A DNA stretch of 64,000 nucleotides from Modestobacter marinus (GTDB taxonomy: Bacteria; Actinomycetota; Actinomycetes; Mycobacteriales; Geodermatophilaceae), in assembly GCF_011758655.1 (NCBI RefSeq), contig NZ_JAAMPA010000001.1:806001-870000 (forward strand), read 5' to 3'. Under the pieces are notes generated by a model. That model searched no databases. It was not told the DNA's origin and saw only the letters and a program-made list of their open reading frames with translations. Positions 10,541 to 52,550 of this stretch are shown in pieces. Positions within the stretch are counted from its first letter, which is position 1, and each line of letters opens with the position of its first letter. A program made the translations under genes and the position numbers.

Positions 10541-11590
10541 ATGAGCACGGCACTGACGCCCGCGGGCGCGCTCCGGAGGATCGCCTTCCTCCTGGAACGC
10601 GCCCGCGAGCCGTCGTACCGCGTCCAGGCCTTCCGGACGGCGGCCACCGTCGTCGCCAGCCTGGACGACGCCGAGCTCGACCGCCGGGTGGCGACCCGCA
10701 CCCTCACCGACCTCAAGGGCATCGGCGACAAGACCGCCACCGTCGTCCTCGAGGCCCACCGCGGCGAGCTGCCGGCCTACCTGGCGAAGCTCGAGGAGGC
10801 GTACGCCGAGCTGGCCCCGCTGGCCGACGACGCCGCGGCGCTGCGGGCCGCGCTCAAGGGCGACCTGCACGCCCACTCCGACTGGTCCGACGGCGGCAGC
10901 CCCATCCGCGAGATGGCCGAGGCCGCGATCGGCATCGGCCACGAGTACCTCGCCCTGACCGACCACTCCCCGCGGCTCACCGTCGCCAACGGCCTCACCC
11001 CCGAGCGGCTGGAGCAGCAGCTGGACGTGGTCGCCGCCCTCAACGAGGAGCTGGCCCCCTTCCGCATCCTCACCGGCATCGAGTGCGACATCCTCGCCGA
11101 CGGCTCCCTGGACCAGACCGACGAACTGCTCGGCCGGCTGGACGTCGTCGTCGCGAGCGTGCACTCCGAACTACGGGCGCCCCGGGCGCAGATGACCGAG
11201 CGGATGCTGGCCGCGGTCGCCAACCCGCACACCGACGTCCTCGGGCACGTCACCGGGCGGCTGGTCATCGGCCGCAAGCAGCGCAACGGCACCCAGCGCC
11301 CCCGCCCGGAGAGCGAGTTCGACGCCGACGCCGTCTTCCGGGCCTGCGTCGAGCACGGGACGGCGGTGGAGATCAACTCCCGCCCCGAGCGGCTCGACCC
11401 GCCCCGGCGGCTGCTCAGCCAGGCCGTGGAGCTGGGCTGCGACTTCGCCATCGACACCGACGCCCACGCCCCCGGTCAGCTCGACTGGCAGGACGCCGGC
11501 TGCGCTCGCGCCGTGGAGTGCGGCGTGCCGGCCGAACGAGTGATCAACAGCCGGTCAGCGGAGGAGCTGCTGGCCCGCACGCACGGCTGA
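10541..11590 (+). CDS. PHP-domain metal-dependent phosphoesterase with helix-hairpin-helix N-terminus
   Basis: A 349-aa protein built like the C-terminal part of PolX-type enzymes without the polymerase domain. Residues about 1-90 form a helix-hairpin-helix region (LTDLKGIGDKTATVVLEA). The PHP domain follows with metal ligands in KGDLHAHSDWSDG, ALTDHSPR, GIECDI, ASVHSE, GHVTGR, EINSRPERLD and IDTDAHAP. It probably hydrolyses phosphoesters, perhaps on nucleic acids; substrate unproven. Its 3' end overlaps the convergent ATP-grasp gene by 36 bp, so the two messages share complementary tails. Confidence 0.9.
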   Translation: MSTALTPAGALRRIAFLLERAREPSYRVQAFRTAATVVASLDDAELDRRVATRTLTDLKGIGDKTATVVLEAHRGELPAYLAKLEEAYAELAPLADDAAALRAALKGDLHAHSDWSDGGSPIREMAEAAIGIGHEYLALTDHSPRLTVANGLTPERLEQQLDVVAALNEELAPFRILTGIECDILADGSLDQTDELLGRLDVVVASVHSELRAPRAQMTERMLAAVANPHTDVLGHVTGRLVIGRKQRNGTQRPRPESEFDADAVFRACVEHGTAVEINSRPERLDPPRRLLSQAVELGCDFAIDTDAHAPGQLDWQDAGCARAVECGVPAERVINSRSAEELLARTHG

Positions 11591-12439
11591 GCGCGGCGGC
11601 AGCCGCCACATCGAGCCGAGCAGCACGTCGAGCGCCGGGTCGAAGCGGTCCAGGCCACCCCCGGGATAGGGCGTGAGCTCGCCGAACCACACCTCGCCGG
11701 CGACGTCGTACAGGTCGACCCGGACGAAGTCGAACGCTGCTCCCAGTGCCTCGGCGACCTCGGTCAGCTGCGGCAGCGAGGCGGGCGGCGCCGTCACCGG
11801 CCCCGGGGCGACCGCCTCGTCGACGTCGAGCGGCGTCCAGTCCGGTGTGTAGAGCCGCCGCCGGTGCGCACCGAACCGCCCGGTGTCCACCTGGACCAGC
11901 CGCACCCGGCCGTCGAAGACGAACAGCTTGTGGTCGGCCGGCACCTCGTCGGCGGGGCCGAGGAACTCCTCGACCAGCAGCACCCGCCGCGCCTGGCGGT
12001 AGACCCACTCGCCGCGGTCCCGGTACAGCGGCTCGTCCAGCCAGCCTGCGGTGACCCAGCGCAGCTGGTCGACGTCCGGGCGCCCGGTGCCGACGTGCAC
12101 CCGCATCGTGCCGTGGTTGGGCTTGAGCACCCAGCGGTCGGGCAGGTCGACCCGGGCGAGGGCCGCGACGTCGACCCCGACCCACAGCACCCGGGGCACA
12201 CGGAGCGAGGGCAGCACCGCAGCGGCGTACTGCCGCATCGCCAGCTTGTCGCCCAGCTGCCCGATGAGCGGCCGCCGGTCGTGCACCACCCGCCAGTTCA
12301 CCTTCTCGGTGAACGTCCGCGGCGGGCGGGCCGGCGCGCGGCCGTGCGCCTGCCGGTAGAGCACCGCACGCTTGGCCGGCAGCGGCAGCCGGCGGACGAC
12401 GGCCGGGGGAACGCGCTCCACTGCCCAGCTGTGATGCAC
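11555..12439 (-). CDS. TupA-like ATP-grasp protein
   Basis: A 294-aa cytoplasmic ATP-grasp protein of the TupA-like family, which includes teichuronopeptide ligases and is common beside polysaccharide genes. The nucleotide-binding core includes RWVLKPNHGTMRVHV, LLVEEFLG, HKLFVFDG, and the metal-binding end FDFVRVDLYDVAGEVWFGEL followed by TPYPGGG. It likely forms an amide or peptide bond on a carboxylate acceptor; acceptor unknown. A close relative is encoded at 49714. The GTG start at 12439 is 7 nt after a CAGACT -10 box, suggesting a leaderless message. It diverges from a glycosyltransferase gene. Confidence 0.85.
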   Translation of the reverse strand: MHHSWAVERVPPAVVRRLPLPAKRAVLYRQAHGRAPARPPRTFTEKVNWRVVHDRRPLIGQLGDKLAMRQYAAAVLPSLRVPRVLWVGVDVAALARVDLPDRWVLKPNHGTMRVHVGTGRPDVDQLRWVTAGWLDEPLYRDRGEWVYRQARRVLLVEEFLGPADEVPADHKLFVFDGRVRLVQVDTGRFGAHRRRLYTPDWTPLDVDEAVAPGPVTAPPASLPQLTEVAEALGAAFDFVRVDLYDVAGEVWFGELTPYPGGGLDRFDPALDVLLGSMWRLPPRSAVRAGQQLLR

Positions 12440-18994: not shown

Positions 18995-20314
18995 TCAGCC
19001 GGCGCGGCGGCCCAGGGCGCGGTAGGTCCAGCCGGCGGCGACCCAGCGGTCACGGTCCAGTGCATTGCGCCCGTCGAGCATCCGCTTCTGCCCCACGACC
19101 TTGCCGAAGGCGACGGGGTCCAGGTCGCGGTACTGCTGCCACTCGGTGAGCACCAGGACGGCGTCGGCCCGGTCGGCCGCTTCCTCCGGGGTGTCCACGG
19201 CGTCCAGCTGCGGCCAGCTGCGGCGGATGTTGTCCCCGGCCGCCGGATCGGTCACCCGCACCGCGGCGCCCTGCAGCTGCAGCTGGGCGGCGACGTTGAG
19301 CGCCGGGGAGTCGCGGATGTCGTCGCTGTTGGGCTTGAACGCCGCCCCCAGCACCGCAACCCGCTTGCCGACCAGCGAGCCGTCGCAGACCTCACGGGCC
19401 AGTTCGACCATCCGGATCCGCCGGCGCATGTTGATGTTGTCGACCTCGCGCAGGAACGTCAGCGCCTGGTCCGCCCCCAGCTCCCCGGCGCGGGCCATGA
19501 ACGCCCGGATGTCCTTGGGCAGGCAGCCGCCGCCGAAGCCGAGACCGGCGTTGAGGAACTTGCGGCCGATCCGATCGTCGTGCCCGATCGCGTCCGCCAG
19601 CTGCTTCACGTCGGCGCCGGTGGCCTCGCACAGCTCGGCCATCGCGTTGATGAAGGAGATCTTGGTGGCGAGGAAGGAGTTGGCAGCGGTCTTCACCATC
19701 TCCGCGGTCGCGTAGTCGGTGACCACCTGAGGGGTGCCCACCGCGACGATCGAGGCGTAGACCTCATCCAGCATCGCCCGGGCCGTCGCACCGTCGGGGC
19801 CGGCCGGGAGGCCGTAGACCAACCGGTCGGGATGCAGCGTGTCCTCCACCGCGAAGCCCTCGCGGAGGAACTCCGGGTTCCAGGCGAGCATTGCGCCGGG
19901 CACCTTGTCGGCGACGAGCTCCGCCAGCCGAGCCGCCGTGCCGACCGGGACCGTCGACTTCCCGGCGACGAGGTCACCGGGCTTGAGCGCCGCCAGCAGC
20001 CCCTCAACCGCCGACTCGACGAACCGCAGGTCCGCGGCGTACTCCCCGCGCTTCTGCGGGGTGCCCACGCAGACGAAGTGGACGACGGCGTCACTGGCGT
20101 CGGCCATGTCGGTGCTGAACCGGAGGCGTCCCGAGGCCAGGGAGGTGCCCAGCAGGTCTTCGAAGCCGGGCTCGTAGAAGGGAGCCTTGGCCCGCTGCAG
20201 CGCGTCGATCTTCGGCTGGTCGACGTCGATGCCGACGACGTCGTGGCCGAGTTCGGCCATCGAGGCCGCGTGCACCGCGCCCAGATAGCCGCAACCGATG
20301 ACCGAGATCTTCAT
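18995..20314 (-). CDS. ugd: UDP-glucose/GDP-mannose dehydrogenase family protein
   Basis: A 439-aa cytoplasmic dehydrogenase that oxidises a nucleotide sugar to the uronic acid, most likely UDP-glucose to UDP-glucuronate. The N-terminal Rossmann motif is VIGCGYLGAVHA (5-16). The family features are GKSTVPVGT (118-126), NPEFLREG (146-153), the catalytic Cys264 in GFGGGCLPKDIRA, and the C-terminal GAAFKPNSDDIRDSPA. It supplies carboxylate-bearing sugars to the polymer, relevant to the ATP-grasp proteins nearby. GDP-mannose as substrate cannot be excluded. It diverges from the LCP gene across 253 bp. Confidence 0.9.
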   Translation of the reverse strand: MKISVIGCGYLGAVHAASMAELGHDVVGIDVDQPKIDALQRAKAPFYEPGFEDLLGTSLASGRLRFSTDMADASDAVVHFVCVGTPQKRGEYAADLRFVESAVEGLLAALKPGDLVAGKSTVPVGTAARLAELVADKVPGAMLAWNPEFLREGFAVEDTLHPDRLVYGLPAGPDGATARAMLDEVYASIVAVGTPQVVTDYATAEMVKTAANSFLATKISFINAMAELCEATGADVKQLADAIGHDDRIGRKFLNAGLGFGGGCLPKDIRAFMARAGELGADQALTFLREVDNINMRRRIRMVELAREVCDGSLVGKRVAVLGAAFKPNSDDIRDSPALNVAAQLQLQGAAVRVTDPAAGDNIRRSWPQLDAVDTPEEAADRADAVLVLTEWQQYRDLDPVAFGKVVGQKRMLDGRNALDRDRWVAAGWTYRALGRRAG

Positions 20315-38622: not shown

Positions 38623-39681
38623 TCAGCGGTAGCCGGGCGAGGTGTAGGTCGCGCCGACCGAGCCGGAGGGGACGAAGTCACCCGACGACGGGCGCCCCTG
38701 CCTCACGCTGCCGGTGATCGAGCTGTCCCTCGGCCAGGTCGCCACCCCGTTGGCGACCTTCGACGGGCACTGCTTGTGGGTCACCGAGGGCCAGACGCTC
38801 TGACCGAAGGGCCGGCCGGGCCGGGGACTGACGTAGACGCCCTCAAGGGCCAGCGGGTAGTCATCGTTGCAGTCGGTCCAGATGTAGTAGCCGCCCTTGT
38901 CCACCGTGCCGTCGTTGGTCCCGACGATGTTGGTGTTCCGGATCGTCCCGCGACCGATCGGGCCGGTGTTCTCGAAGACGTGCAGGCCCTGGAAGTTCGA
39001 GGAGCCGGTCAGCCGGTCGATGCGGTACTCCCGCAGCCCGCCCCACGGCTGGAAGACGTCGGCATGGTTCCCGGTGCTCGTGCCGCGCAGGCCGTTGACC
39101 CGCACGTTCTGGATCTGCAGGACGGCCCGCGGCGCGTTGGCGGCAATGCCGTCGGTCTGCGCTCCGCTCACGGCGCCGTTGATGTAGACGCCCTCGATGT
39201 GCACGGTGCCCGTACAGTTGCGCACGTAGATCGCGCGCTGGTCGTGGCCGCCGACCTTTGCCGAGGGGAGGGCCTTGATGCTGCCGCCGATGAGGACGGC
39301 GTTGCGGCAGTCGGTGATCGTGATCGGGCCGACCGCGCGGTCGGTGGGCAGCTTGACCAGCACGTCACCGCCGCGACCGCTGATCGTGGTCATCGACGTC
39401 GTCGCCGTCACCTTCTTGACGGGGTAGTTGGCGTACCCGGCGGGCGGCGCCCAGCTGAGCTTGGGGCGGCTGGTCGCGGCAGCCAGCTCGAGCTGCGGCG
39501 ATGCGAGGGCCACACCAGGCGCGGGCGCCTGGGGCTCGGCGGCGGTGACGGTGGTCGTCATCGGCACGAGGCAGCCGGCGGCTATGGCGAGCGCAAGCCA
39601 GCGGCCGCGGCCGCCACTCGCGATCGAACGGCGCGTAGCCGAGGCGGACTTTCGTGAGGAGACGAAACTGGGTCGAGGCAC
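38623..39681 (-). CDS. Secreted right-handed beta-helix protein, copy 1
   Basis: A 352-aa exported protein. An unusually long N-terminal region (RPSFVSSRKSASATRRS) precedes the hydrophobic signal WLALAIAAGCLVPM. The body has pectate-lyase-like parallel beta-helix repeats: GPITITDCRNAVLIGGSIKA, TDGIAANAPRAVLQIQNVRV, NHADVFQPWGGLREYRIDRL and FQGLHVFENTGPIGRGTIRN. It may bind or cleave a polysaccharide; catalytic residues are not evident. The GTG at 39681 is chosen because both paralogues have TACcTT/TACgTT exactly 7 nt before this codon. GC is lower at the 5' end. Confidence 0.8.
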   Translation of the reverse strand: MPRPSFVSSRKSASATRRSIASGGRGRWLALAIAAGCLVPMTTTVTAAEPQAPAPGVALASPQLELAAATSRPKLSWAPPAGYANYPVKKVTATTSMTTISGRGGDVLVKLPTDRAVGPITITDCRNAVLIGGSIKALPSAKVGGHDQRAIYVRNCTGTVHIEGVYINGAVSGAQTDGIAANAPRAVLQIQNVRVNGLRGTSTGNHADVFQPWGGLREYRIDRLTGSSNFQGLHVFENTGPIGRGTIRNTNIVGTNDGTVDKGGYYIWTDCNDDYPLALEGVYVSPRPGRPFGQSVWPSVTHKQCPSKVANGVATWPRDSSITGSVRQGRPSSGDFVPSGSVGATYTSPGYR

Positions 39682-40139
39682 GCGGGGCAAGGTAGCAGCG
39701 TCATTACGTCACACCGCACATCTTGTGGAACTGCTCGGTCCGGTGATATGAGGACCACTCCGGGTGACCTGGCCCGCACCGAACGAACCGGCTCACCGCA
39801 CGCGGTGGGCCAACGGTCTCGACAACGTCACACGCAGTTCACCCCGCGAACGACCCCCCGGCAGCAGATCAACCGCTTCTCAGGACCCTCACGCCGTGGC
39901 GCGTGGCAGACGGGCCTGTCGCCGAGTTGATCCCTGCTCGGATTGGCAGAATCGCAATCAGTACCGCCCTCGCCGCTGAGCGTGATCGAAAGGACCTGCA
40001 CGAACTCTCATTCGCGCAACGGCAGGTAGCGGTTGGATCGCACACAGTTCCCGAGACCAACTACCGGACGAATTGGGCCCCGAAATGCCAATGACTCAGC
40101 TACGGTCCCCCGGAATACCGACCACGGGGGTCAACAACT
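39682..40139. other. Divergent intergenic region, 458 bp
   Basis: Holds the beta-helix promoter (39689-39760) and the upstream region of the GT39-like gene. GC is low for this genome. A 63-codon frame (39903-40094, plus) begins with VAELIPARIGRIAIS, faintly like the start of DUF2252 proteins, but is too short to call. Confidence 0.5.
39689..39694 (-). promoter_or_regulatory. -10 box (TACCTT) of beta-helix gene 1
   Basis: TACCTT on the minus strand ends 7 nt before GTG 39681. The paralogue has TACGTT at 42796-42801 with identical spacing, and both are preceded by a conserved gtgacgtaat-type or gtgacgtaatc-type element. Conservation between duplicates makes this one of the better supported promoters here. 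Confidence 0.6.
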
Positions 40140-41474: not shown

Positions 41475-42788
41475 TCAGCGGTAGCCGGGCGAGGTGTAGG
41501 TGGCGCCGACCGAGCCGGCCGGGACGAAGTCACCCGACGAGGGGCGACCCTCCCGCACGCTGCCGGTGATCGAGGCGTCCTTCGGCCAGGTCGCCACGCC
41601 GTTGGAGACGTTCGCCGCGCACGTCTTGTGGGTCACCGAGGGCCAGACGCTCTGACCGAAGGGCCGACCCGGCCGGGGTGCGACGTAGACGCCGTCCAGG
41701 GTCAGCGGGTAGTCGTCGGCGCAGTCGGTCCAGATGTAGTAGCCACCCTTGTCCACCGGGGCGTCGTTGTGCCCGAAGATGTTGGTGTTCCGGATGATGC
41801 CGGCGCCGATCGGCCCGGTGTTCTCGAAGATGTGCAGCCCCTGGAAGTTCGACGAGCCGGTCAGCCGGTCGATGCGGAACTCCCTCAGCCCGCCCCAGGG
41901 CTGGAAGACGTCGGCGTGGTTCCCGGTGCTCATGCCGCGCAGGCCGTCGACCCGCACGTTCTGGATCTGGAGGATGGCCTTCGGCGCGTTCGCGGCGATG
42001 CCGTCGGTCTGCGCGCCGCTCACGGCGCCGTCGATGTGGACGCCCTCGATGTGCACCGTGCCGGTGCAGTTGCGCACGTAGATGGCGCGCTGGTCGTAGC
42101 CGGACACCTTCGCCGAGGGCAGCGCCCGGATGCTGCCGCCGATGATGACGGCGTTGCGGCAGTCCGCGATCGTGATCGGGCCCACCGCACGGTCCTTGGG
42201 CAGCTGGATCAGCACGTCACCACCGCGACCGCTGATCGTCGTCAGCGAGTTGGTCGCCGTCACCTTGGTCACGGGGTAGTTCGCGTAGCCGGCGGGCGGC
42301 GCCCAGCTGAGCGCGGCACCCGAGGTAGTGGTGGCCGCCGGCGCCGGGGCCGGTGCGGCGACCTGCTCGACCTTCACCGGCGCGGGGGCCGGCGCAGGTG
42401 CCGCCACCTCCTCGACGCGGGGTGCCTCGGCGGTGGGGGCAGGAGCGGGAGCAGGGGGCTTCGGGGCGGACGAGGAGGCCGCCAGGCTGTCGGCTCGGGC
42501 GTCCGCCGACGCACTGGCCGCGGCACCGGCGTTCGGCTGCGTGGCCGGGTCCTCGGTCGGTGCTTCGGTCACCGCCGCGACGGGCGCGTCCGCGACCGGG
42601 GCCGGCGCGGGCGCCGCGACGTCGGCGGCGGGCACCGGCTCAGCGGCACCGGTGGCGGCTTCGGTCACCGGGACGAGGCAGCCCATGGCGATCGCCAGGG
42701 CGAGCCAGCGACTGCGGCCACCACCCATGATCGCGCGGCAGGTGGCCGAGGCGGACTTTCGTGTGGAGACGAAACGGGAGCGAGGCAC
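41475..42788 (-). CDS. Secreted right-handed beta-helix protein, copy 2
   Basis: A 437-aa paralogue of the protein at 38623. The signal region is SRWLALAIAMGCLVPVTEA. Residues about 50-160 form a long Ala/Pro/Val/Glu-rich linker absent from copy 1. The C-terminal 270 residues match copy 1 closely (SGRGGDVLIQLPKDRAVGPI, NHADVFQPWGGLREFRIDRL, GYYIWTDCADDYPLTLDGVY). The linker may span the wall or capsule. The GTG at 42788 is 7 nt after TACGTT. A surface glycan-binding or lyase role is inferred from the fold and the EPS context. Confidence 0.82.
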   Translation of the reverse strand: MPRSRFVSTRKSASATCRAIMGGGRSRWLALAIAMGCLVPVTEAATGAAEPVPAADVAAPAPAPVADAPVAAVTEAPTEDPATQPNAGAAASASADARADSLAASSSAPKPPAPAPAPTAEAPRVEEVAAPAPAPAPVKVEQVAAPAPAPAATTTSGAALSWAPPAGYANYPVTKVTATNSLTTISGRGGDVLIQLPKDRAVGPITIADCRNAVIIGGSIRALPSAKVSGYDQRAIYVRNCTGTVHIEGVHIDGAVSGAQTDGIAANAPKAILQIQNVRVDGLRGMSTGNHADVFQPWGGLREFRIDRLTGSSNFQGLHIFENTGPIGAGIIRNTNIFGHNDAPVDKGGYYIWTDCADDYPLTLDGVYVAPRPGRPFGQSVWPSVTHKTCAANVSNGVATWPKDASITGSVREGRPSSGDFVPAGSVGATYTSPGYR

Positions 42789-44374: not shown

Positions 44375-44424
44375 TCGGCGCGCCGGACTCGCGCACGCCG
44401 GTACCCCCCGAGAGGACCACGGAC

Positions 44425-45096
44425 ATGACCACCGACACCGCCGCGCCCCCGCTCCCCCGGTACCGCCACGAGGACCCGGGCACGCCGCTGCGTGACGTGC
44501 TGCGCGTGATCCGCCGGAGCTGGCTGATCATCGTGGCCGCCGTCGTCGCCGGGCTCCTCGCCGGCTGGCTCCTCACCGTCTTCCTGCCGGAGCGGTACGA
44601 GACCGAGACCAAGGTGCTCGTCGACCCGGTCGTCGCCGTCGAGGCCACCGACAGCCTGTCCCAGGCGTCCGCGCTCGTCGCCGACCGGGTGGAGACCTTC
44701 GCCGCCCTCGCCCAGACCCCCGCGGTGCTCGACCCCGCCATCGACGCCATCGATGCAGACGTCTCCTCGACCGAGCTGGTGGACAACGTCTCCGCCGAGG
44801 TCATCCCCCGCACCTCGATCATCAACATCACCGTCGAGGCCGGCACGCCGACGAACGCCGCCGAGCTCGCCAACGCGATCGCCGCCAGCCTCATCACCCA
44901 GATCGAGGGGGACGGCGCCGCCGCCACCCCGGTCAGCCTGACCGGGACCGTGGTCGAGGCCCCGGAGATCCCCGACGAGCTGGCGTCGCCGCTGCTCCTG
45001 CTGAACCTGCTGGCCGGGCTCGCGGTCGGCCTGCTCGTCGCCTTCCTGGTGATCGTGTTCCGCCAGGCGCTCTCCGCGGGGACCCGGGGACGCTGA
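44425..45096 (+). CDS. Wzz-type polysaccharide chain-length protein
   Basis: A 223-aa protein with two membrane segments (about 33-53 and 191-212) and a mixed extracellular domain, the Wzz/YveK plan. The N-terminal motif LRDVLRVIRRSWLIIVAAVVA and the Pro/Leu-rich end before the second segment (APEIPDELASPLLLLNLLAG) are typical. No kinase domain follows. GAGAGGA lies upstream of the ATG. Its stop overlaps the Wzy start by 1 nt (TGATG), so the pair is translationally coupled and probably works together on chain length. Confidence 0.88.
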   Translation: MTTDTAAPPLPRYRHEDPGTPLRDVLRVIRRSWLIIVAAVVAGLLAGWLLTVFLPERYETETKVLVDPVVAVEATDSLSQASALVADRVETFAALAQTPAVLDPAIDAIDADVSSTELVDNVSAEVIPRTSIINITVEAGTPTNAAELANAIAASLITQIEGDGAAATPVSLTGTVVEAPEIPDELASPLLLLNLLAGLAVGLLVAFLVIVFRQALSAGTRGR

Positions 45097-46598
45097 TGTC
45101 GGCGCCGCCGACGACCGCTGGCGCCACCGCGCGGTCCGGCCCGGGAACGCCTCCCGGGCCCGCCTGGGCGGTGCTCGCCGCAGCCCTGACCTTCGTCCTG
45201 GCCGCCCTGGCCTTGATCGAGCCGGCCCTGCCGCTCGCCGTGCTCATCGCCCTCACCGGGGTGCTGATCGCGGCGTTCCGGCCGAAGCTCTTCGTCCTCC
45301 TGGCGCTGGTCGTCATCATCCTCTCGGCGCCCATCCAGAACGTGCTGGGACAGGTGGGCACCTACGCGGACGAGGGCGTGATCGCCCTCGCCTTCGTCGC
45401 CCTCACCACCCGCCGCCTGGTCACCGAGGGGCGCCTGGTCTGGCTGCCCGGGACCGGCTGGTTCGTCGGCTTCCTCGTCGCCGGGCTGGTCAGCGCCGCG
45501 CTGGCCGAGGTGCCCGTCGGGCTCGCCGTCCCCGCGGCCTTCATCGCCGTCAAGGGCGTGCTGTTCGCCTTCGCCATCGCGCAGCTGCACTGGGACCGCG
45601 ACGACCTGGCCCTGCTGGTCCGCCTCGGCATCACGGCGATCGTGCTCATGGCCCTCAGTGCCCTGCTGAACCTCGCGGCCCCGGCCGCGTGGGCGGAGTT
45701 CACCACCGGGCGGCCGCCGATCAGCTACATCGGCCCGTTCCCGGCGATCAACGGCGCGTTCCAGCACCCGGCCGCCTTCAGCCGGTTCTGCGGGGTGCTC
45801 GCCGTCGCCGCGCTCGTCTACGGCATGGTCGTCCGCCGGTCCTTCGCCAACACGGTCCTGGTGCTCGTCTCCGGCGGGCTGGCCTTCCTGACCTTCCAGG
45901 TGAAGTCGATCGTCGGGCTGCTGGCCACGCTCGCGGTGGTCGGCGCCCGCTTCCTCCGGCCGGTCGGGGTCGCGGCGATCCTCTGCATCGGGCCGCTCAT
46001 CGCGCTGATCACCGTGCCTCCCCTGGCGGACCTCATCGGTGGCGACATCGAGATCTACCTGAACCAGGACTCCGCGCGGGGCCTGCTCACCGCGGGTGGG
46101 ATCACCGTGGCGGCGCAGTACTTCCCGGTCGGCGCGGGGTTCGGCCGGTACGGCAGCTCCACGGCCGCCGACGACTACAGCCCGCTGTACTACGCGCTGG
46201 GCTTCCCTGGCCGCTATGGCCTGGGCCCGGGGCCGGACTCCGGCCAGTTCCTCAACGACTCGCAGTGGCCGGCGATCTACGGGGAGACGGGCTGGTTCGG
46301 CGCCTTCTTCTTCGCGGCCGGCCTCGCCTGCATCGTCGTCGCCCTGCTGCGGCGCGTCTCCGCCCACGAGGACGTGCTGGTCCGCTGGATCCGGATCACC
46401 GGCGTCGGGTGGCTGATCCTGCTGCTCGTGGAGTCCGCCGTGGCCCCGGTGTTCGTGTCGTCGCCGTCCTTCCCGTTCGTGTTCGCCGCCGCCGGCGTCA
46501 TCGCCTCGCTCCGCGTCGACGCGCGCCACGAGGCCCGGCACGACGCGTCCCGGGGACCAGCACCGGCCATGGGGCACGGAGAACCGGTCACAGCTTGA
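45096..46598 (+). CDS. O-antigen ligase/Wzy-like polymerase
   Basis: A 500-aa protein with about 12 membrane segments and a large external loop (about 340-400: FGRYGSSTAADDYSPLYYAL then NDSQWPAIYGETGWFG). The loop contains the Gly/Arg and E-x-G-x-F patterns common in O-antigen ligase-like proteins. It would polymerise or ligate EPS units in the outer leaflet. The start overlaps the Wzz stop. Another polymerase-like gene at 26308 has a clearly different sequence, which suggests two polymers or a ligase/polymerase pair. Confidence 0.82.
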   Translation: MSAPPTTAGATARSGPGTPPGPAWAVLAAALTFVLAALALIEPALPLAVLIALTGVLIAAFRPKLFVLLALVVIILSAPIQNVLGQVGTYADEGVIALAFVALTTRRLVTEGRLVWLPGTGWFVGFLVAGLVSAALAEVPVGLAVPAAFIAVKGVLFAFAIAQLHWDRDDLALLVRLGITAIVLMALSALLNLAAPAAWAEFTTGRPPISYIGPFPAINGAFQHPAAFSRFCGVLAVAALVYGMVVRRSFANTVLVLVSGGLAFLTFQVKSIVGLLATLAVVGARFLRPVGVAAILCIGPLIALITVPPLADLIGGDIEIYLNQDSARGLLTAGGITVAAQYFPVGAGFGRYGSSTAADDYSPLYYALGFPGRYGLGPGPDSGQFLNDSQWPAIYGETGWFGAFFFAAGLACIVVALLRRVSAHEDVLVRWIRITGVGWLILLLVESAVAPVFVSSPSFPFVFAAAGVIASLRVDARHEARHDASRGPAPAMGHGEPVTA

Positions 46599-46670: not shown

Positions 46671-47804
46671 GTGACCCTGAGCAGGCTGCAGCGCGTCAAG
46701 TTGGTCTGGCTGTGGGGTTACCGGCCCGCGGACTTCGCCGCCTACGGCTTCGATGACGGCCGCCCGCCCACCGACGCCGGCCGGTTCCTGGGCAGCGACT
46801 GGAACCGCAGGTTCGTCCAGGACGTCGTCAACGACCCGCGCAACCACGTGCTCACCGAGCACAAGTGGGTCTTCTACCGCTTCGCCGACGGGTTCGGCCT
46901 GCCCGTGCCGCCGACCATCGGCTTCTACGACAGCGTCCAGGGCACCACCTGGGACGGCGAGCGCCCGCTGCGGACCGTGCCGCAGGTCCTCGCCGAGCTG
47001 GACCGCGAGCGCCCGACCGGGCTGGTGGTGAAGCCCGCAGGCGGAGGGCAGGGCGCGCAGATCACCATCCTCGACCGGATCGACCACGCGACCGGCGCGG
47101 CCACGACCCGCACCGGCGAGGAGACCACCCTCGAGCGCGTGTTCGCCGCCCTCGACCCGGGCGGTGAGCGCGGGGTCAGCGGGTACGTCGTGCAGCACGC
47201 CGTCCGCAACCACCCGGACCTGGCCGCACTCGCCCCCACGACGACCAACACCTGCCGCGTCCTCACCACCGTCGCCGCCGACGGGACGGCGCACGTGCAC
47301 GCGGCGAGCACCCGCCTCGGCCGGCGCGGGAACATGATCGACAACTGGGGCTCCGGCGGGGTCAGCATCCCGATCGACGTGACCACCGGCGTGATGGGCC
47401 CCGGCATCCTCAAGGGGGTGCCCGGCGACCTGACCGACCACCCCGACACCGGCGAGCGGTTCGCCGGCCGGCAGCTGCCCCTGTGGCAGGAGACCGTCGA
47501 CCTGTGCCGCCGCGCCGCCGTCCTCTTCCCGGGGCTGCGCTTCCTCGGCTGGGACGTGGTGATCGGCCCGGACGGGCCCGTGCTGCTCGAGGGCAACGTG
47601 CACTGGAGCCTGCGCGGCTCGCAGATGCTGGCCGACGAGGGCTGGCTCGCCGACCCGGTCACCCGGGAGCGGGTCGAGGCCCTCGGCGTGCCGCTGCCCA
47701 CCGGCCGGGTGTCCCGGCAGGTCGCCCTCGGGATGGCGCTCCGCGGCCGAGACCGCGCCGGCCGGGTGGCCCGGCGGGCCGGTCGCGCCCTCGGCTCCCG
47801 ATGA
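46671..47804 (+). CDS. Sugar-transfer-associated ATP-grasp protein 1
   Basis: A 377-aa cytoplasmic ATP-grasp protein of the type that co-occurs with polysaccharide genes. The ATP-binding part has TGLVVKPAGGGQGAQITIL, and the metal-binding end has FLGWDVVIGPDGPVLLEGN. NTCRVLTTVAADG and MIDNWGSGGVSIPID are also family motifs. ATP-grasp enzymes activate carboxylates as acyl phosphates, so the product is probably an amide or peptide link on a sugar acid; unproved. The GTG at 46671 has AGGAGGA just upstream. It is followed by the PP-loop gene with 61 nt between. Confidence 0.87.
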   Translation: MTLSRLQRVKLVWLWGYRPADFAAYGFDDGRPPTDAGRFLGSDWNRRFVQDVVNDPRNHVLTEHKWVFYRFADGFGLPVPPTIGFYDSVQGTTWDGERPLRTVPQVLAELDRERPTGLVVKPAGGGQGAQITILDRIDHATGAATTRTGEETTLERVFAALDPGGERGVSGYVVQHAVRNHPDLAALAPTTTNTCRVLTTVAADGTAHVHAASTRLGRRGNMIDNWGSGGVSIPIDVTTGVMGPGILKGVPGDLTDHPDTGERFAGRQLPLWQETVDLCRRAAVLFPGLRFLGWDVVIGPDGPVLLEGNVHWSLRGSQMLADEGWLADPVTRERVEALGVPLPTGRVSRQVALGMALRGRDRAGRVARRAGRALGSR

Positions 47805-47865
47805 ACCCCGCGGCCGGTCGTCCGGCACCGCACCCGTGACCCCTGGAACGAACGAGAGGACGGCG

Positions 47866-48660
47866 ATGACTGCCGCCGAGGACCACGCGCTGACCGAGGA
47901 CGCCGCCCCCACCGCGGCCGCCGCCCCCGTCACTGATCACTCCCCCGTCCGGCTGCTGTGGACCGGCGGCTGGGACTCCTCCTTCCGGCTGATGCAGGCG
48001 CTGCTCGTCGACCACCGGCCCGTGCAGCCGATCTACGTGGTCAACCCCGAGCGCCGCAGCACCCTGCTGGAGCTCAGCACGATGTCCCGGATGCGCGAGC
48101 AGCTGCTCCAGCGGCTCGACGACCCGGCGATGCTCGCCCCCACCGAGCTGCACCTGCGCTGGGACTTCCCGCCGTCGGAGGAGCTCCAGGCCCTCAACGC
48201 CTCGATCCTGCGCCACGGCGTCTGGATCGGCAGCCAGTACGTCTACCTGGCCGGCGTCGCCGAGAAGCTCGGCTGGTCGAACGTGGAGGTCTGCATGCAG
48301 GCCCACGACGACGGCCCCACCGCCCTGCACCGCCTGGTCTTCACCGACGACCGCGGCACGCTCAGCTCCGCCCCCGAGGCGCAGATGTTCCGCTTCTGGT
48401 CCTTCCCCGTCCTCCGGACGACGAAGGGCGAGATGGCCGCGATCGCCCGGGATCACGGCTTCCTGGACCTGCTGTCGCAGCGCTGGTTCTGCCACGACCC
48501 CCTGGGCGACCTGCCCTGCGGTCAGTGCCGGCCCTGCCAGCTGACCAACCGGGACGGCGTGACCTTCGCTCCCCCGGCACTGGTCCTCGGTCGCAAGGTC
48601 GTGCGGACCCAGCGGCGGCTCACCCGGGCCGCCAGGCGGCGGGTCCGGCGCGCCGCATGA
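47866..48660 (+). CDS. QueC-like PP-loop ATPase/ligase in an EPS operon
   Basis: A 264-aa cytoplasmic protein. The PP-loop is LLWTGGWDSSFRL (30-42) with the conserved GG-x-DS (34-38). Near the C-terminus are Cys209, Cys218, Cys221 and Cys224 (C-x8-C-x2-C-x2-C, in PCGQCRPC), the zinc-site spacing of 7-cyano-7-deazaguanine synthase QueC. PP-loop enzymes adenylate a carboxylate or carbonyl. No other queuosine genes are nearby; ATP-grasp genes flank it on both sides, the next overlapping by 4 nt (ATGA). It may therefore act on a polymer precursor. GAGAGGA precedes the ATG at 5 nt. Confidence 0.85.
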   Translation: MTAAEDHALTEDAAPTAAAAPVTDHSPVRLLWTGGWDSSFRLMQALLVDHRPVQPIYVVNPERRSTLLELSTMSRMREQLLQRLDDPAMLAPTELHLRWDFPPSEELQALNASILRHGVWIGSQYVYLAGVAEKLGWSNVEVCMQAHDDGPTALHRLVFTDDRGTLSSAPEAQMFRFWSFPVLRTTKGEMAAIARDHGFLDLLSQRWFCHDPLGDLPCGQCRPCQLTNRDGVTFAPPALVLGRKVVRTQRRLTRAARRRVRRAA

Positions 48661-49649
48661 CCAGCCGGGCGACGCTGCTGCGGACCATGGCCCGCCTGGA
48701 GCGGCGCCAGTACGCCGGGCGGCTGCACCCGACGATGTGGCGGCGCGGCTTCCTCTCCAACCGCTGGTACGCCTACCCCGGCATCCACGACCCCGCCGTC
48801 CCCTTCATCAGCGACGCCGCGGTCGAGGCCCGGCTGCGCCGGCTGAACCACCCGGCCGGCGCCCGGCTGCTGGAGGACAAGAACGTCTTCGCCGACGTCG
48901 TGGTCGCCCGCGGGCTCGCCGCGAGCGCACCCGAGGTCTACGGCGTGGGGCTGCGCGGGGTCCTGTACGGCCGGTCGGCGGAGGCGCTGGACCGGATGCG
49001 TGCGGCGGCGGCCGTCGTCGTCAAGCCCCTCGACGGGGCGGGCGGACGCGGGGTCCGCATCGTGGCCGGCGAGCAGGTCGAGAGCCTGGTCGCCGGTGAC
49101 CCGGACGCCGTCGTCCTCGTGCAGGAGCGGCTGGCGCAGCACCCGCAGCTGCGCGCCGTGCACCCGGGCTCGCTCAACACGCTCCGGGCGCTGGCCATCC
49201 GGCTGCCGGACGGCGACCCGGTGGTCGCCGCCGCGGTCCACCGGTGGGGCACCGCGGCCAGCGGCGCCGTCGACAACGTCAGCTCGGGCGGCCTGTGCAG
49301 CGCCGTCGACCTCGCGTCCGGGCGCCTCGGCCCGGCGGTGGGCCGCCCCCGGGAGCGCGGGCGGCCGACGTACGACCGGCACCCGGACACCGACGTGCAG
49401 ATCGCCGGGGAGACCGTGCCGCACTGGGGCGAGGTGCTCGACCTGGTCGGGGAGCTGATGCGGGCCTTCCCGGAGGTCACCCACGTCGGCTGGGACGTCT
49501 GCGTCACCGACCGCGGCCCGTTGGTCCTCGAGGGGAACGCCGGGGTCCCGAACCTCAACGTGTTCCAGTTCCACGGGTCGTTCCTGTCCGACCCGCGCGT
49601 GCGGCGCTTCTACATCGACCACGGCCTGCTCGACCGCCGGCACGCCTGA
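48657..49649 (+). CDS. Sugar-transfer-associated ATP-grasp protein 2
   Basis: A 330-aa paralogue-like ATP-grasp protein. AAVVVKPLDGAGGRGVRIV is the ATP-binding loop, HPGSLNTLRALAIRL and VDNVSSGGLCSAVDL are family motifs, and HVGWDVCVTDRGPLVLEGNA is the metal-binding end. It overlaps the PP-loop gene by ATGA, so the two proteins are made in similar amounts and perhaps form a complex or act in sequence. It is the last gene of the operon, followed by a strong hairpin at 49664. Substrate unknown. Confidence 0.87.
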   Translation: MTSRATLLRTMARLERRQYAGRLHPTMWRRGFLSNRWYAYPGIHDPAVPFISDAAVEARLRRLNHPAGARLLEDKNVFADVVVARGLAASAPEVYGVGLRGVLYGRSAEALDRMRAAAAVVVKPLDGAGGRGVRIVAGEQVESLVAGDPDAVVLVQERLAQHPQLRAVHPGSLNTLRALAIRLPDGDPVVAAAVHRWGTAASGAVDNVSSGGLCSAVDLASGRLGPAVGRPRERGRPTYDRHPDTDVQIAGETVPHWGEVLDLVGELMRAFPEVTHVGWDVCVTDRGPLVLEGNAGVPNLNVFQFHGSFLSDPRVRRFYIDHGLLDRRHA

Positions 49650-49663
49650 ACCCACGGGGTGGC

Positions 49664-49695
49664 GCAGGCGCTCCCCTGTGCCGGGGAGCGCCTGC
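49664..49695. terminator. Bidirectional hairpin closing the ATP-grasp operon
   Basis: Perfect 13-bp inverted repeat gcaggcgctcccc/ggggagcgcctgc (49664-49676, 49683-49695) with a 6-nt loop, midway between the convergent stops at 49649 and 49714. Confidence 0.88.
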
Positions 49696-49713
49696 CGCGG
49701 CCCCGGGCGGGGC

Positions 49714-50589
49714 TCAGCGGAGGCGGAGCAGCCGCCGCTTCCCGGAGACCGGGAGCTCCCACCAGCTGCCCAGCAGCCGGTCCAGCTCCGGCTCGTACCG
49801 GGCCAGGCCCGCCGCGGGGTACGGGGTCAGCTCGCCGAACCACAGCACCCCGTCGTGCTCGTAGAAGTCCACGCGCATCATGTCGAAGTCCGCCGCCAGC
49901 AGGGACGCCGCCTTCAGCATGTCCTCCAGCCGCTCCGGCCGTGCGGTGTCCGGCCCGGGGGCGTAGCCGCCGTTCCAGGGCAGCGGCTCCCAGTCGGGGG
50001 TGTAGTACCGCGCCCGGTGCACGTTCCCGTCCCGGCTGTGGACGGCGACGGCGCGGGGCACGCCGTCGAAGACGAACAGCTTGAGGTCGGCCGGCACCTC
50101 ACCCGGCGTGCCGATGAACTCCTCGACGAGCAGGCCGGGGCGCGCGGTGCGGTAGGCCCACTCGCCACTGCGCCGCCAGTACGGCTCGCTCACCCACCCC
50201 TCGACCTCCGCGGCGAGCGCGTCGACGTCGGCCGGGCCACCGCTGATCACCACGCGCTGGCTGGCGTGGTTCGGCTTCAGCACCCAGTTCTCGGGGAGGT
50301 CGACGTCCCGCAGCTCGGCGACGTCCGTGCCGAACCAGTAGGTCTCGGGCGTGCGGGTGAGGTCCGGCGCGAGCCGGGCGGCGTGCTCCTTCATCGCCAG
50401 CTTGTCGCAGGTGAGCCGGAGCAGCTCGCGGCGGTCGCGGGTCACCCGCCACTGGACCTTGTCGTTGAAGGTCTCGAAGTCCACCAGCGGGGGCAGCCGA
50501 CCGTGCCGGAGGTAGAACTTCCTCGCCCGGCGCAGCTGGACAGGGACCAGCCGCTGCGGGTCGAGACGGGGGAACGGCGCACGGGCCAC
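49714..50589 (-). CDS. TupA-like ATP-grasp protein, second copy
   Basis: A 291-aa relative of the protein at 11555. Shared landmarks are TFNDKVQWRV, DKLAMKEHAA, WVLKPNHASQRVVI, GLLVEEFIG, LKLFVFDG, YTPDWEPLPW and VLWFGELTPYPAAGL. Predicted to ligate an amino acid or amine to a carboxylate on a glycan. I chose GTG 50589 because GGAG lies 8 nt upstream; GTG 50598 is possible. It converges on the ATP-grasp/PP-loop operon and diverges from an ABC exporter, so it probably serves the same polymer. Confidence 0.86.
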   Translation of the reverse strand: MARAPFPRLDPQRLVPVQLRRARKFYLRHGRLPPLVDFETFNDKVQWRVTRDRRELLRLTCDKLAMKEHAARLAPDLTRTPETYWFGTDVAELRDVDLPENWVLKPNHASQRVVISGGPADVDALAAEVEGWVSEPYWRRSGEWAYRTARPGLLVEEFIGTPGEVPADLKLFVFDGVPRAVAVHSRDGNVHRARYYTPDWEPLPWNGGYAPGPDTARPERLEDMLKAASLLAADFDMMRVDFYEHDGVLWFGELTPYPAAGLARYEPELDRLLGSWWELPVSGKRRLLRLR

Positions 50590-50747: not shown

Positions 50748-52550
50748 TTGTCACTGCCGAAGCAGTGGCCGACCCCGACCCGGGTCGTCCGGCGCTACAC
50801 GACCGCGTGGCAACAGTTCGGTCCCTTCCTCGGCTCGTCGAAGTCGCGCATCGCGGTGATGGCCGGCGGCTCGGTGGTCGCCGGTCTGGTCGAGGCCGTG
50901 CTGCTGGCCCTGGTCGCCTCCCTCGCCACCGCGCTCTCGCAAGGGCAGACGCAGGTCGACGCCCTCCCCGGCCCGCTCGAGTTCGAGGCACCGCTGCTCG
51001 TCCTCTGCCTGGTGGGCATGGGGGTGGCCGTCTTCCGCGGCGCGCTGCAGGTCTGGCTGGCCTACGTCCCCGCGTCGATGAGCGCAGCGGTGATGGCCAA
51101 CCTCCGCCGTGACCTGTTCGAGCGGTTCACCTCGGCGTCCTGGAAGATCCAGTCGGCCGAGCGTGACGGGCACTTCCAGTCCCTGATGACCACCCAGGCG
51201 ATCCAGGCCTCGGCGGCGGTCACCACCCTCTCCGAGGGCATCAGCGCCGTCCTGATGTTCTTCACGCTGCTCGCCTCCGCCTTCCTGCTCAGCGCCCCGA
51301 CGGCGCTGATCCTCATCGGCGCCTCGGCGGTCCTGTTCGTGATGCTGGCCCCGCTGGCCCGCCGCCAGCGCGGCCACGCCCGGGCGCTGAGCGCGGAGAA
51401 CGTCGAGTACGCCAAGGGCGTGCAGGAGATGGTCCAGCTGGCCGAGGAGACGCAGGTCTTCGGCGCCAGCCGGGCCTACCGCGAGGCGGTCGAGGGGATG
51501 ATCCAGGAGGTCCGTCGTCCGCTCCTGCAGACGCGCTTCCTCAACCGGGCCGTGCCGGCGCTGTACCAGAGCGTGGCGTTCTTCCTGCTGCTCCTCGCCC
51601 TCACGATCGTCTTCCTCTCCGGGGCGACGGCGATCGGCGAGCTCGGTGCGGTGGTCCTCATCCTCATCCGGTCGCTGACCTTCGGGCAGCGGATCCAGGC
51701 CTCCTCCACCCGGATGAACGAGCTGATCCCCTACATGGGCCGGCTGCGCCGGGCGCTGGACCACTACGCCGACCACACCCGGCAGGACGGCGACCAGCCG
51801 CTGTCCCGCATCGAGCGGCTCGGCATGTCCCACGTGGACTTCGGCTACGACGCCAAGACCCCCGTCCTGCACGACGTCTCCTTCGAGGCCAGCCGCGGCG
51901 AGGTGATCGGCATCGTCGGCCCGTCCGGGGCGGGGAAGTCCTCCATCGTGCAGCTGCTGCTGCGCCTCCGGCTGCCCACCAGCGGCACCGTCACGGTCAA
52001 CGACCAGGACGGCCGCGACTTCCGCCTCGAGGACTGGCGGCACCGGGTCTCCTACGTGCCGCAGAGCCCGCAGCTGCTCTGGGGCACCGTCGCCGACAAC
52101 ATCCGCTTCTACCGCGACGACATCTCCGACGCCGACGTCGAGGAGGCCGCCCGCAAGGCCTCGCTGCACGAGGAGATCCTCAGCTGGCCGAAGGGCTACC
52201 AGACGGTCATCGGGCAGCGCGCGGCGGCGATTTCCGGCGGCCAGCGCCAGCGGCTGTGCCTGGCGCGCGCCCTGGCCGGGCGGCCCGACGTGCTGATCCT
52301 CGACGAGCCGACCAGCGCGCTGGACGTCAAGAGCGAGCAGGCGGTCCAGGAGTCCCTGGCCCGGATGAAGGGCGAGGTCCTGCTGCTGCTCGTCGCGCAC
52401 CGGGTGTCCACCCTGTCGATCTGCGACCGGGTCATGGTGATGGGCGACGGCCGGCTCCAGGGCATCGCCGAGCCCGAGGTCCTGCTGCGCGACAACGACT
52501 TCTTCCGGGAGATCACCGAGATCTCGCAGGCCGGGCACAGCGTCCCCTGA
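50748..52550 (+). CDS. ABC exporter, fused permease-ATPase (MsbA/PglK-like)
   Basis: A 600-aa half-transporter. Six membrane segments lie in about 35-330, followed by the nucleotide-binding domain: Walker A GPSGAGKSS, Q-loop YVPQSPQLLWG, signature ISGGQRQRL, Walker B VLILDEPTSALD and H-loop LLVAHR. The TTG start has AGGAGAG 5 nt before it. Such exporters move lipid-linked glycans or lipids; with two Wzx-like proteins also present, it may serve a separate polymer or a lipid intermediate. Two terminators follow. Confidence 0.9.
   Translation: MSLPKQWPTPTRVVRRYTTAWQQFGPFLGSSKSRIAVMAGGSVVAGLVEAVLLALVASLATALSQGQTQVDALPGPLEFEAPLLVLCLVGMGVAVFRGALQVWLAYVPASMSAAVMANLRRDLFERFTSASWKIQSAERDGHFQSLMTTQAIQASAAVTTLSEGISAVLMFFTLLASAFLLSAPTALILIGASAVLFVMLAPLARRQRGHARALSAENVEYAKGVQEMVQLAEETQVFGASRAYREAVEGMIQEVRRPLLQTRFLNRAVPALYQSVAFFLLLLALTIVFLSGATAIGELGAVVLILIRSLTFGQRIQASSTRMNELIPYMGRLRRALDHYADHTRQDGDQPLSRIERLGMSHVDFGYDAKTPVLHDVSFEASRGEVIGIVGPSGAGKSSIVQLLLRLRLPTSGTVTVNDQDGRDFRLEDWRHRVSYVPQSPQLLWGTVADNIRFYRDDISDADVEEAARKASLHEEILSWPKGYQTVIGQRAAAISGGQRQRLCLARALAGRPDVLILDEPTSALDVKSEQAVQESLARMKGEVLLLLVAHRVSTLSICDRVMVMGDGRLQGIAEPEVLLRDNDFFREITEISQAGHSVP

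Follow-up and report, generated by a model that had tools for sequence, protein, structure and literature searches.

A QueC-superfamily PP-loop gene kept beside ATP-grasp ligase genes in a polysaccharide region of Modestobacter marinus

In Modestobacter marinus and its relatives, the gene for a PP-loop enzyme that carries a QueC-type cysteine site and yet is separate from QueC is conserved next to genes for two families of ATP-grasp ligases, and frequently also next to a gene for an ATP-binding cassette (ABC) exporter. We analysed a 64,000-nucleotide stretch of the M. marinus genome (assembly GCF_011758655.1, contig NZ_JAAMPA010000001.1, positions 806,001 to 870,000; hereafter the window, numbered from its first base), in which a first-pass annotation had noted three ATP-grasp genes around a gene whose PP-loop is intact and which also encodes a QueC-type zinc site. 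Pfam searches and translation confirmed these coordinates and features. The PP-loop protein (264 amino acids; 47866-48660, forward strand) carries the loop LWTGGWDSSFR, a lysine at K187 and the zinc-site cysteines C209, C218, C221 and C224. Its gene is preceded by grasp1 (377 amino acids; 46671-47804, forward strand), a ligase of the ATPgrasp_ST family (PF14397; E-value 1.9e-45, 155.7 bits, cut-off 31.4), and followed by grasp2 (330 amino acids; 48657-49649, forward strand), a second ligase of that family (1.1e-40, 140 bits, cut-off 31.4). The third ATP-grasp gene (49714-50589, reverse strand) encodes a TupA-like protein (ATPgrasp_TupA, PF14305; 2.9e-22, 79.8 bits, cut-off 25, scanned as a longer frame of 425 amino acids); it is convergent with the others and not part of their transcript.

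The PP-loop gene most likely starts at the ATG at 47866, which lies behind the sequence GAGAGGA; a GTG at 47836, giving 274 amino acids, is the less probable start. Counted from the ATG, the four cysteines have the numbers given earlier, TGGWDS is intact, and the TGA stop codon overlaps the ATG of grasp2 by 4 bases, as had been noted. GC content is 0.71-0.76 in the cassette genes and the ABC exporter gene, against 0.72 in the whole window. The ATP-grasp lysine and E-G-N residues are present in 6/6 aligned sequences of the grasp1 and grasp2 type, and the RVDxY...FGExT residues in 4/4 aligned TupA-like sequences. Grasp1 is 87-93% identical in three other Modestobacter genomes and 60% identical to its counterpart beside a Blastococcus PP-loop gene. 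The corresponding values for grasp2 are 91-93% in three other Modestobacter genomes, 60% in genome G028 and 52-56% in three tandem copies in Blastococcus G831.

The PP-loop family and its separation from QueC

On sequence evidence, the PP-loop protein belongs to the QueC superfamily in the broad sense and is distinct from QueC. Its match to the Pfam family QueC (PF06508) scores 13.7 bits, below the gathering cut-off of 22, and it therefore perhaps falls outside the PF06508 network of a published QueC-family survey (PMC13329287). Three viral relatives exceed the cut-off (30.7-34.5 bits). A profile built from ten relatives has the QueC proteins of Escherichia coli and Bacillus subtilis as its top PDB matches (9.8e-4 and 1.1e-3), in an alignment to the QueC structure that spans most of the length, zinc site included. 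HHalign against five QueC sequences from the same phylum returned a probability of 97.8 (E-value 6.8e-13, 207 columns), and the PHROG family phrog_1550, named 'QueC-like', matched at 1.5e-8. The earlier label 'QueC-like' is thus borne out by profile methods (PDB, HHalign and PHROG), and in Pfam it stays below the threshold.

The loop is LWTGGWDS in 16 of the 17 family sequences and LWTSGWDS in the other (G242), while C-x8-C-x2-C-x2-C is found in 14, the window protein included, and has x9 spacing in three (G242 and two viral sequences). Loop and cysteine pattern are beyond chance, since both are kept in 17/17 sequences at identities down to 29%. We take the four cysteines as a QueC-type, putative metal-binding zinc site. 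The lysine of a TK motif, K187, is invariant in alignments of 14/14 and 10/10 sequences and lines up with the QueC TK; it probably corresponds to QueC K165. An AlphaFold model of the window protein has a mean predicted local distance difference test (pLDDT) of 80 and a predicted template modelling score of 0.70.

The family thus shares with QueC the PP-loop, the C-x8-C-x2-C-x2-C site, the TK lysine and profile similarity over nearly the whole length, and superfamily membership together with the zinc motif could favour reading the gene as a canonical QueC for the synthesis of preQ0 and queuosine or of other 7-deazaguanines. This reading is almost certainly wrong. The signature of canonical QueC includes SGGxDS, YxQxHxxE, VPxRN, YPDC, Y189 and K165, according to the available part of PMC13329287. 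The SGGxDS loop is present as a variant, TGGWDS in 16/17 and TSGWDS in 1/17, along with the TK lysine and the cysteine motif. However, VPxRN, YPDC and YxQxHxxE are missing from 17/17 family sequences, and immediately following the first zinc cysteine comes His, Phe or Trp in 17/17, at a position that we equate with Y189 by inference. In a phylogeny of 16 of the 17 family sequences (G005 was omitted as a near-copy of G013) and five QueC proteins, the family formed a separate clade with support of 100/100, so that the window protein does not cluster with true QueC. The M. marinus genome, rated 100% complete, has no TGT or QueD-family gene (QueE was not searched for); in control genomes the same searches detected the two in 14/14 and 9/14 cases, respectively. 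No QueC gene was found elsewhere in this genome, the one other PF06508 match being weak (L001) and asparagine synthetase-like by eye. Without TGT and QueD genes, no deazaguanine substrate is expected by the usual route. We therefore rejected canonical QueC on the separate clade, the missing motifs and the missing pathway genes.

Partnership with ATP-grasp genes

The PP-loop protein is rare. Its gene is present in 10 of the 112 Geodermatophilaceae genomes searched, that of M. marinus included, and the only further case in a class-wide sample of 394 genomes was G242. Among 396 genomes of the phylum, 397 of the order of M. marinus, 150 of the family of G242 and 119 of the genus of G242 there were weak partial matches only, which in the phylum and order searches cover mainly the zinc-site end. 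Six weak phylum matches (L020-L025) were rejected as family members and read as true QueC with GRN or ARN and YPDC motifs; of the six weak matches that the order search also gave, the one translated (G049) is among the phylum six. Searches of collections of plasmids and phages returned no PP-loop match. In IMG/VR we found two phage contigs with a lone PP-loop gene (L054, which also has a capsid gene, and L055, which has lysis genes), as well as one viral lineage with a longer gene described below.

In bacteria we identified 12 loci in 11 genomes (G000, G001, G005, G013, G021, G028, G809, G823 with two loci, G825, G831 and G242), with duplicate loci counted once (L010 equals G021, L011 equals G013, L012 equals G005 and L013 equals contig C26 of G831). 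A gene of an ATP-grasp family directly adjoins the PP-loop gene at 12/12 loci, so the gene neighbourhood is conserved in relatives. A TupA-type gene lies within about 4 kb at 11/12 loci and an ATPgrasp_ST gene at 7/12. Full-length ATPgrasp_ST genes (E-value <1e-30) occur in 7 of 108 family genomes, all seven among the 10 with a PP-loop gene; this count leaves aside short PF14397 matches (E-values above 1e-8) seen in further genomes. TupA-type genes occur in 44 of the 108, including all 10. Fisher's exact tests of co-occurrence with the PP-loop gene gave p = 4e-9 for ATPgrasp_ST and p = 6e-5 for the TupA type; these values presuppose that the 108 genomes are contained in the 112, and both are overstated because the relatives are not independent (the four Modestobacter loci are orthologous).

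The arrangement of the set varies. G242 has TupA, PP-loop and ATPgrasp_ST genes on one strand as an operon, and in G028 the order is TupA / ABC-grasp2-PP-PP-PP. The three tandem PP-loop copies of G028 (L015:9392-11754) are each 48-54% identical to the window protein, and the second and third lie in one uninterrupted frame of 520 codons. Blastococcus G831 has a PP-loop gene and a grasp1-type gene on contig C26, and TupA / ABC followed by three grasp2-type genes on contig C17; all five gene kinds are therefore kept there, though split between two loci. The three tandem grasp2-type genes (L073:7555-10699) mirror the three PP-loop copies of G028. In genus g12 the PP-loop gene stands beside one to three TupA-type genes. 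A gene for a 255-amino-acid protein with no Pfam match (L042:9926-10693, with equivalents in L039, L040 and L041) accompanies the PP-loop gene at 4/4 g12 loci and is missing along with it at both PP-loop-less loci examined.

The sister species G001 is collinear with the window, with 87% DNA identity up to position 46528 and 89% from 49712. Between these points it has a single PP-loop gene (46% protein identity) in place of grasp1, the PP-loop gene and grasp2, which shows that the three were exchanged as a block. The PP-loop gene and its ATP-grasp neighbours are conserved as a unit, and their partnership is real. Splitting and duplication of the set occur, as does its exchange as a cassette.

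The viral lineage offers a further form of the partnership. Its protein P0007 (601 amino acids) consists of a RimK-like region followed by a PP-loop domain (Pfam QueC, 2.3e-7). The gene is whole on two contigs, and two more contigs, from one other sample, carry its two ends; a UDP-glucose dehydrogenase gene lies directly upstream and a terminase-like gene downstream (2.4e-5, just short of the cut-off). The RimK-like region matched Pfam at 0.0024 (short of the cut-off), phrog_2599 at 6.8e-4 and RimK in PDB at 0.1. It is likely, but not certain, that this region is an ATP-grasp domain fused to the PP-loop domain.

The two lone phage copies (L054:4986-5705 and L055:4995-5735) stand right after large genes that encode lectin-like or carboxypeptidase-like domains and probably specify tail proteins, and that of L055 precedes holin-like and peptidoglycan-hydrolase genes. 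They are possibly glycan-related moron genes.

Proposed function and alternatives

The window is a polysaccharide region with genes for a priming transferase, a UDP-glucose dehydrogenase, a LytR-CpsA-Psr protein, a Wzz protein, a flippase-type protein, and pyruvyl, acyl and glycosyl transferases. Immediately 5' of the cassette (44419-46598, forward strand) are genes for the Wzz-type chain-length protein (Pfam 2.1e-8) and for a hydrophobic protein of 500 amino acids, which has no Pfam match and is called wzy-like from its position and appearance. UDP-glucose dehydrogenase (18995-20314, reverse strand; UDPG_MGDP_dh_N 1.1e-53), a possible source of uronic acid, is encoded about 28 kb from the cassette, and close by in G242 and on the viral contig. 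Divergent from the TupA-like gene is that of the ABC exporter, a protein of 600 amino acids with a membrane and an ATPase part (50748-52550, forward strand; ABC_tran 2.2e-33), which is 61% identical in G028 and 68% in G831 and adjoins the TupA and grasp2 genes in both. Around the G242 operon are genes for UDP-glucose dehydrogenase, Wzz, a priming transferase and a family 2 glycosyltransferase (GT2), and a polysaccharide lyase and a priming transferase are encoded near the C17 half of the G831 set.

Elsewhere in the window, a second TupA-like ATP-grasp gene (11555-12439, reverse strand; Pfam 3.4e-25) lies about 35 kb from the cassette and adjoins a gene with a weak glycosyltransferase-like match. 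Two related proteins are encoded near the exopolysaccharide (EPS) genes (38623-39690 and 41475-42788, reverse strand); that at 41475-42788 has no Pfam match, and a relative at 61-63% adjoins the TupA gene on G831 C17.

The gene association is observed directly, and the substrate, product and reactions proposed here are drawn from sequence and precedent. Our best explanation, to which we give about even chances, is that the cassette is a modular carboxylate-amidation module that would act mainly on the uronic acids of exopolysaccharide, extending or capping a side chain. The TupA-like ATP-grasp domain of Campylobacter Cj1438 is reported to amidate capsule glucuronate at its C6 carboxylate (PMC11800379). 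By analogy, the TupA-like ligase may convert the C6 carboxylate of a uronic acid to an acyl phosphate and then couple an amine to it, and the two ATPgrasp_ST ligases may extend or branch the amide with further amino acids or amines. QueC uses ammonia and two ATP-dependent steps to turn a carboxylate first into an amide and then into a nitrile (PMC13329287, PMC13060819). The PP-loop enzyme would likewise adenylate a carboxylate (ATP to AMP and PPi) and combine it with ammonia or an amine to give an amide, possibly continuing to a nitrile as QueC does and so capping the side chain. Export of the decorated unit might be through the Wzx/Wzy-type system or the linked ABC exporter.

The first-pass annotation had suggested that the genes together could amidate or otherwise tailor uronic acid carboxyls of the EPS polymer. 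The adjacency at 12/12 loci, the probable viral fusion and the block swap support a conserved unit; the link to EPS is not universal. Several observations weigh against the amidation module as we propose it. At 6/12 loci (G028, Blastococcus C26, G809, both G823 loci and G825) there is no polysaccharide gene among the neighbours examined, which numbered 10 genes in G028 (three of them the module), nine at Blastococcus C26 and four at G823 C196. At G809, G823 C224 and G825 the module lies between two alpha-amylase-family genes, which we take for trehalose genes, and an alpha-amylase-type gene fragment lies near G823 C196. The TupA-type gene adjoining the PP-loop gene at G823 C224 looks shortened, with similarity over 166 of 291 residues. 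G001 has a PP-loop and a TupA gene, and its sole full-length ATPgrasp_ST gene is 587 kb away. Both PP-loop-less g12 genomes examined keep paired TupA genes. An Ensifer plasmid has a TupA-like gene followed by two ATPgrasp_ST genes with no PP-loop match (L059:5534-8564); the ligases thus occur without the PP-loop gene, which looks like an added step. That plasmid stretch also has flippase and GT2 genes alongside, recognised by eye. No ATP-grasp match was found among the scanned neighbours of the tailed-phage PP-loop genes (7 of 11 neighbours scanned for L054 and 7 of 10 for L055). The ATP-grasp assignment in P0007 comes from weak scores, and an AlphaFold model made without an alignment has a pLDDT of 36; HHalign of its N-terminal part against ATPgrasp_ST and TupA alignments gave no match, a test that was blind because those two alignments missed each other too. 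Finally, a Foldseek search with the model of the window PP-loop protein gave no match at E-values of 0.001 or below (TM-score about 0.36), and among the 50 best rows there was no QueC, the weak matches being to other PP-loop ATPases.

The main rival explanation is that the module makes a small exported pseudo-peptide and that its location in an EPS cluster is incidental: the ATP-grasp ligases would build the product, the PP-loop enzyme would convert a carboxylate to an amide or nitrile, and the ABC protein would carry out the export. In its favour, the ABC exporter accompanies TupA and grasp2 in Modestobacter, G028 and G831, and at half of the loci no EPS gene lies among the neighbours examined. 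QueC and other synthetases are described as forming nitriles with ATP (PMC13060819), which would suit such a product. However, a look through the scanned neighbours, which was not exhaustive, turned up no gene for a peptide precursor, carrier protein or peptidase, the context is one of EPS genes in Modestobacter, G001, G242 and the C17 half of G831, and the TupA-like precedent works on a polysaccharide. We regard a pseudo-peptide as unlikely, though well short of negligible. An N-acetyl-sugar amidotransferase like WbpG or LpNASAT, making an acetamidino sugar, would share the PP-loop, a tetracysteine site and the polysaccharide context; the available part of PMC13329287 places WbpG-type enzymes in the PF06508 network, and LpNASAT (8wex) ranks 47th in the Foldseek search with an E-value of 0.25. 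The tetracysteine site of these enzymes is CXXC...CXXC (PMC10607449), as opposed to C-x8/9-C-x2-C-x2-C in the window family, and no glutamine-amidotransferase match was found among the scanned neighbours, which makes this activity improbable.

QueC-family proteins have been recruited to anti-phage defence (PMC13279940, PMC13329287), and protein conjugation like that by Cap9 of type IV CBASS or QatC of qatABCD therefore had to be weighed. This is very improbable: PADLOC gave no match for any of the four proteins, there is no QueD-family gene for the supply of CDG (7-carboxy-7-deazaguanine), neither the Cap9 motifs (YxDC, RN) nor the QatC motif (C-x19-CGxCxxRR) was seen by eye in the alignments, and phage contigs themselves carry the PP-loop family. 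Defence of the Cap9 or QatC kind and the amidotransferase were accordingly rejected or ranked low, the former for the missing PADLOC matches and motifs and the latter for its other cysteine pattern. EPS clusters are frequently shuffled, and a TupA-type gene alone is common, as its count among the family genomes shows; both could favour an accidental assortment of the four genes. Against this are the adjacency at all 12 loci in differing settings, the split but complete set of G831, the probable viral fusion and the block swap in G001, and we give an accidental origin hardly any credence.

Relation to known systems and significance

The amidation module that we favour can be set beside several described systems. 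The TupA-like protein and the Cj1438 domain are of the same ATP-grasp class by name (their sequences were not compared), and both occur in a polysaccharide context with uronic acid available; Cj1438, however, is joined to a glycosyltransferase and works with serinol or ethanolamine phosphate, and the available part of PMC11800379 mentions no PP-loop partner. Grasp1 and grasp2 are clear members of PF14397, the sugar-transfer associated ATP-grasp family, and are here paired with a PP-loop enzyme. ArtA/NitB and PesC likewise use ATP to make a nitrile from an amide or carboxylate (PMC13060819), but they are argininosuccinate synthetase-like or asparagine synthetase-like and not QueC-like with a cysteine site. 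WbpG and LpNASAT, which are counted in the wider QueC superfamily (PMC13329287), resemble the window protein in combining a PP-loop with a zinc tetracysteine site in surface-polysaccharide synthesis, and differ in the cysteine pattern.

Literature searches found no paper on a set of PP-loop or QueC, ATP-grasp and polysaccharide genes, and none under the name or number of PF14397; the term 'ATP-grasp' has no occurrence in the available part of the text of the QueC-family survey. As known uses of the QueC superfamily, that text describes the synthesis of nucleobases, the modification of proteins in phage defence, sulfur transfer of the LarE type, GMP synthase and sugar amidotransfer (PMC13329287). 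Since WbpG-type sugar amidotransferases are already in the superfamily, acting on sugars would be no first. The new elements are the association with ATP-grasp genes and this particular superfamily branch.

We tentatively suggest, with the chances leaning against it in full, that a further branch of the QueC superfamily, beyond the WbpG type, acts on glycans: together with ATP-grasp amidoligases it would build amide-linked, possibly nitrile-capped uronic-acid side chains on a surface polysaccharide, from genes that are exchanged as a cassette between species and occur in fused form in a virus beside UDP-glucose dehydrogenase. If true, the link to ATP-grasp ligases would add another role to those known for the QueC scaffold. 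The swap between two species supplies natural variants of the cassette for comparison, and the cassette offers a testable route to the function of PF14397 and to polysaccharide amidation in soil actinobacteria.

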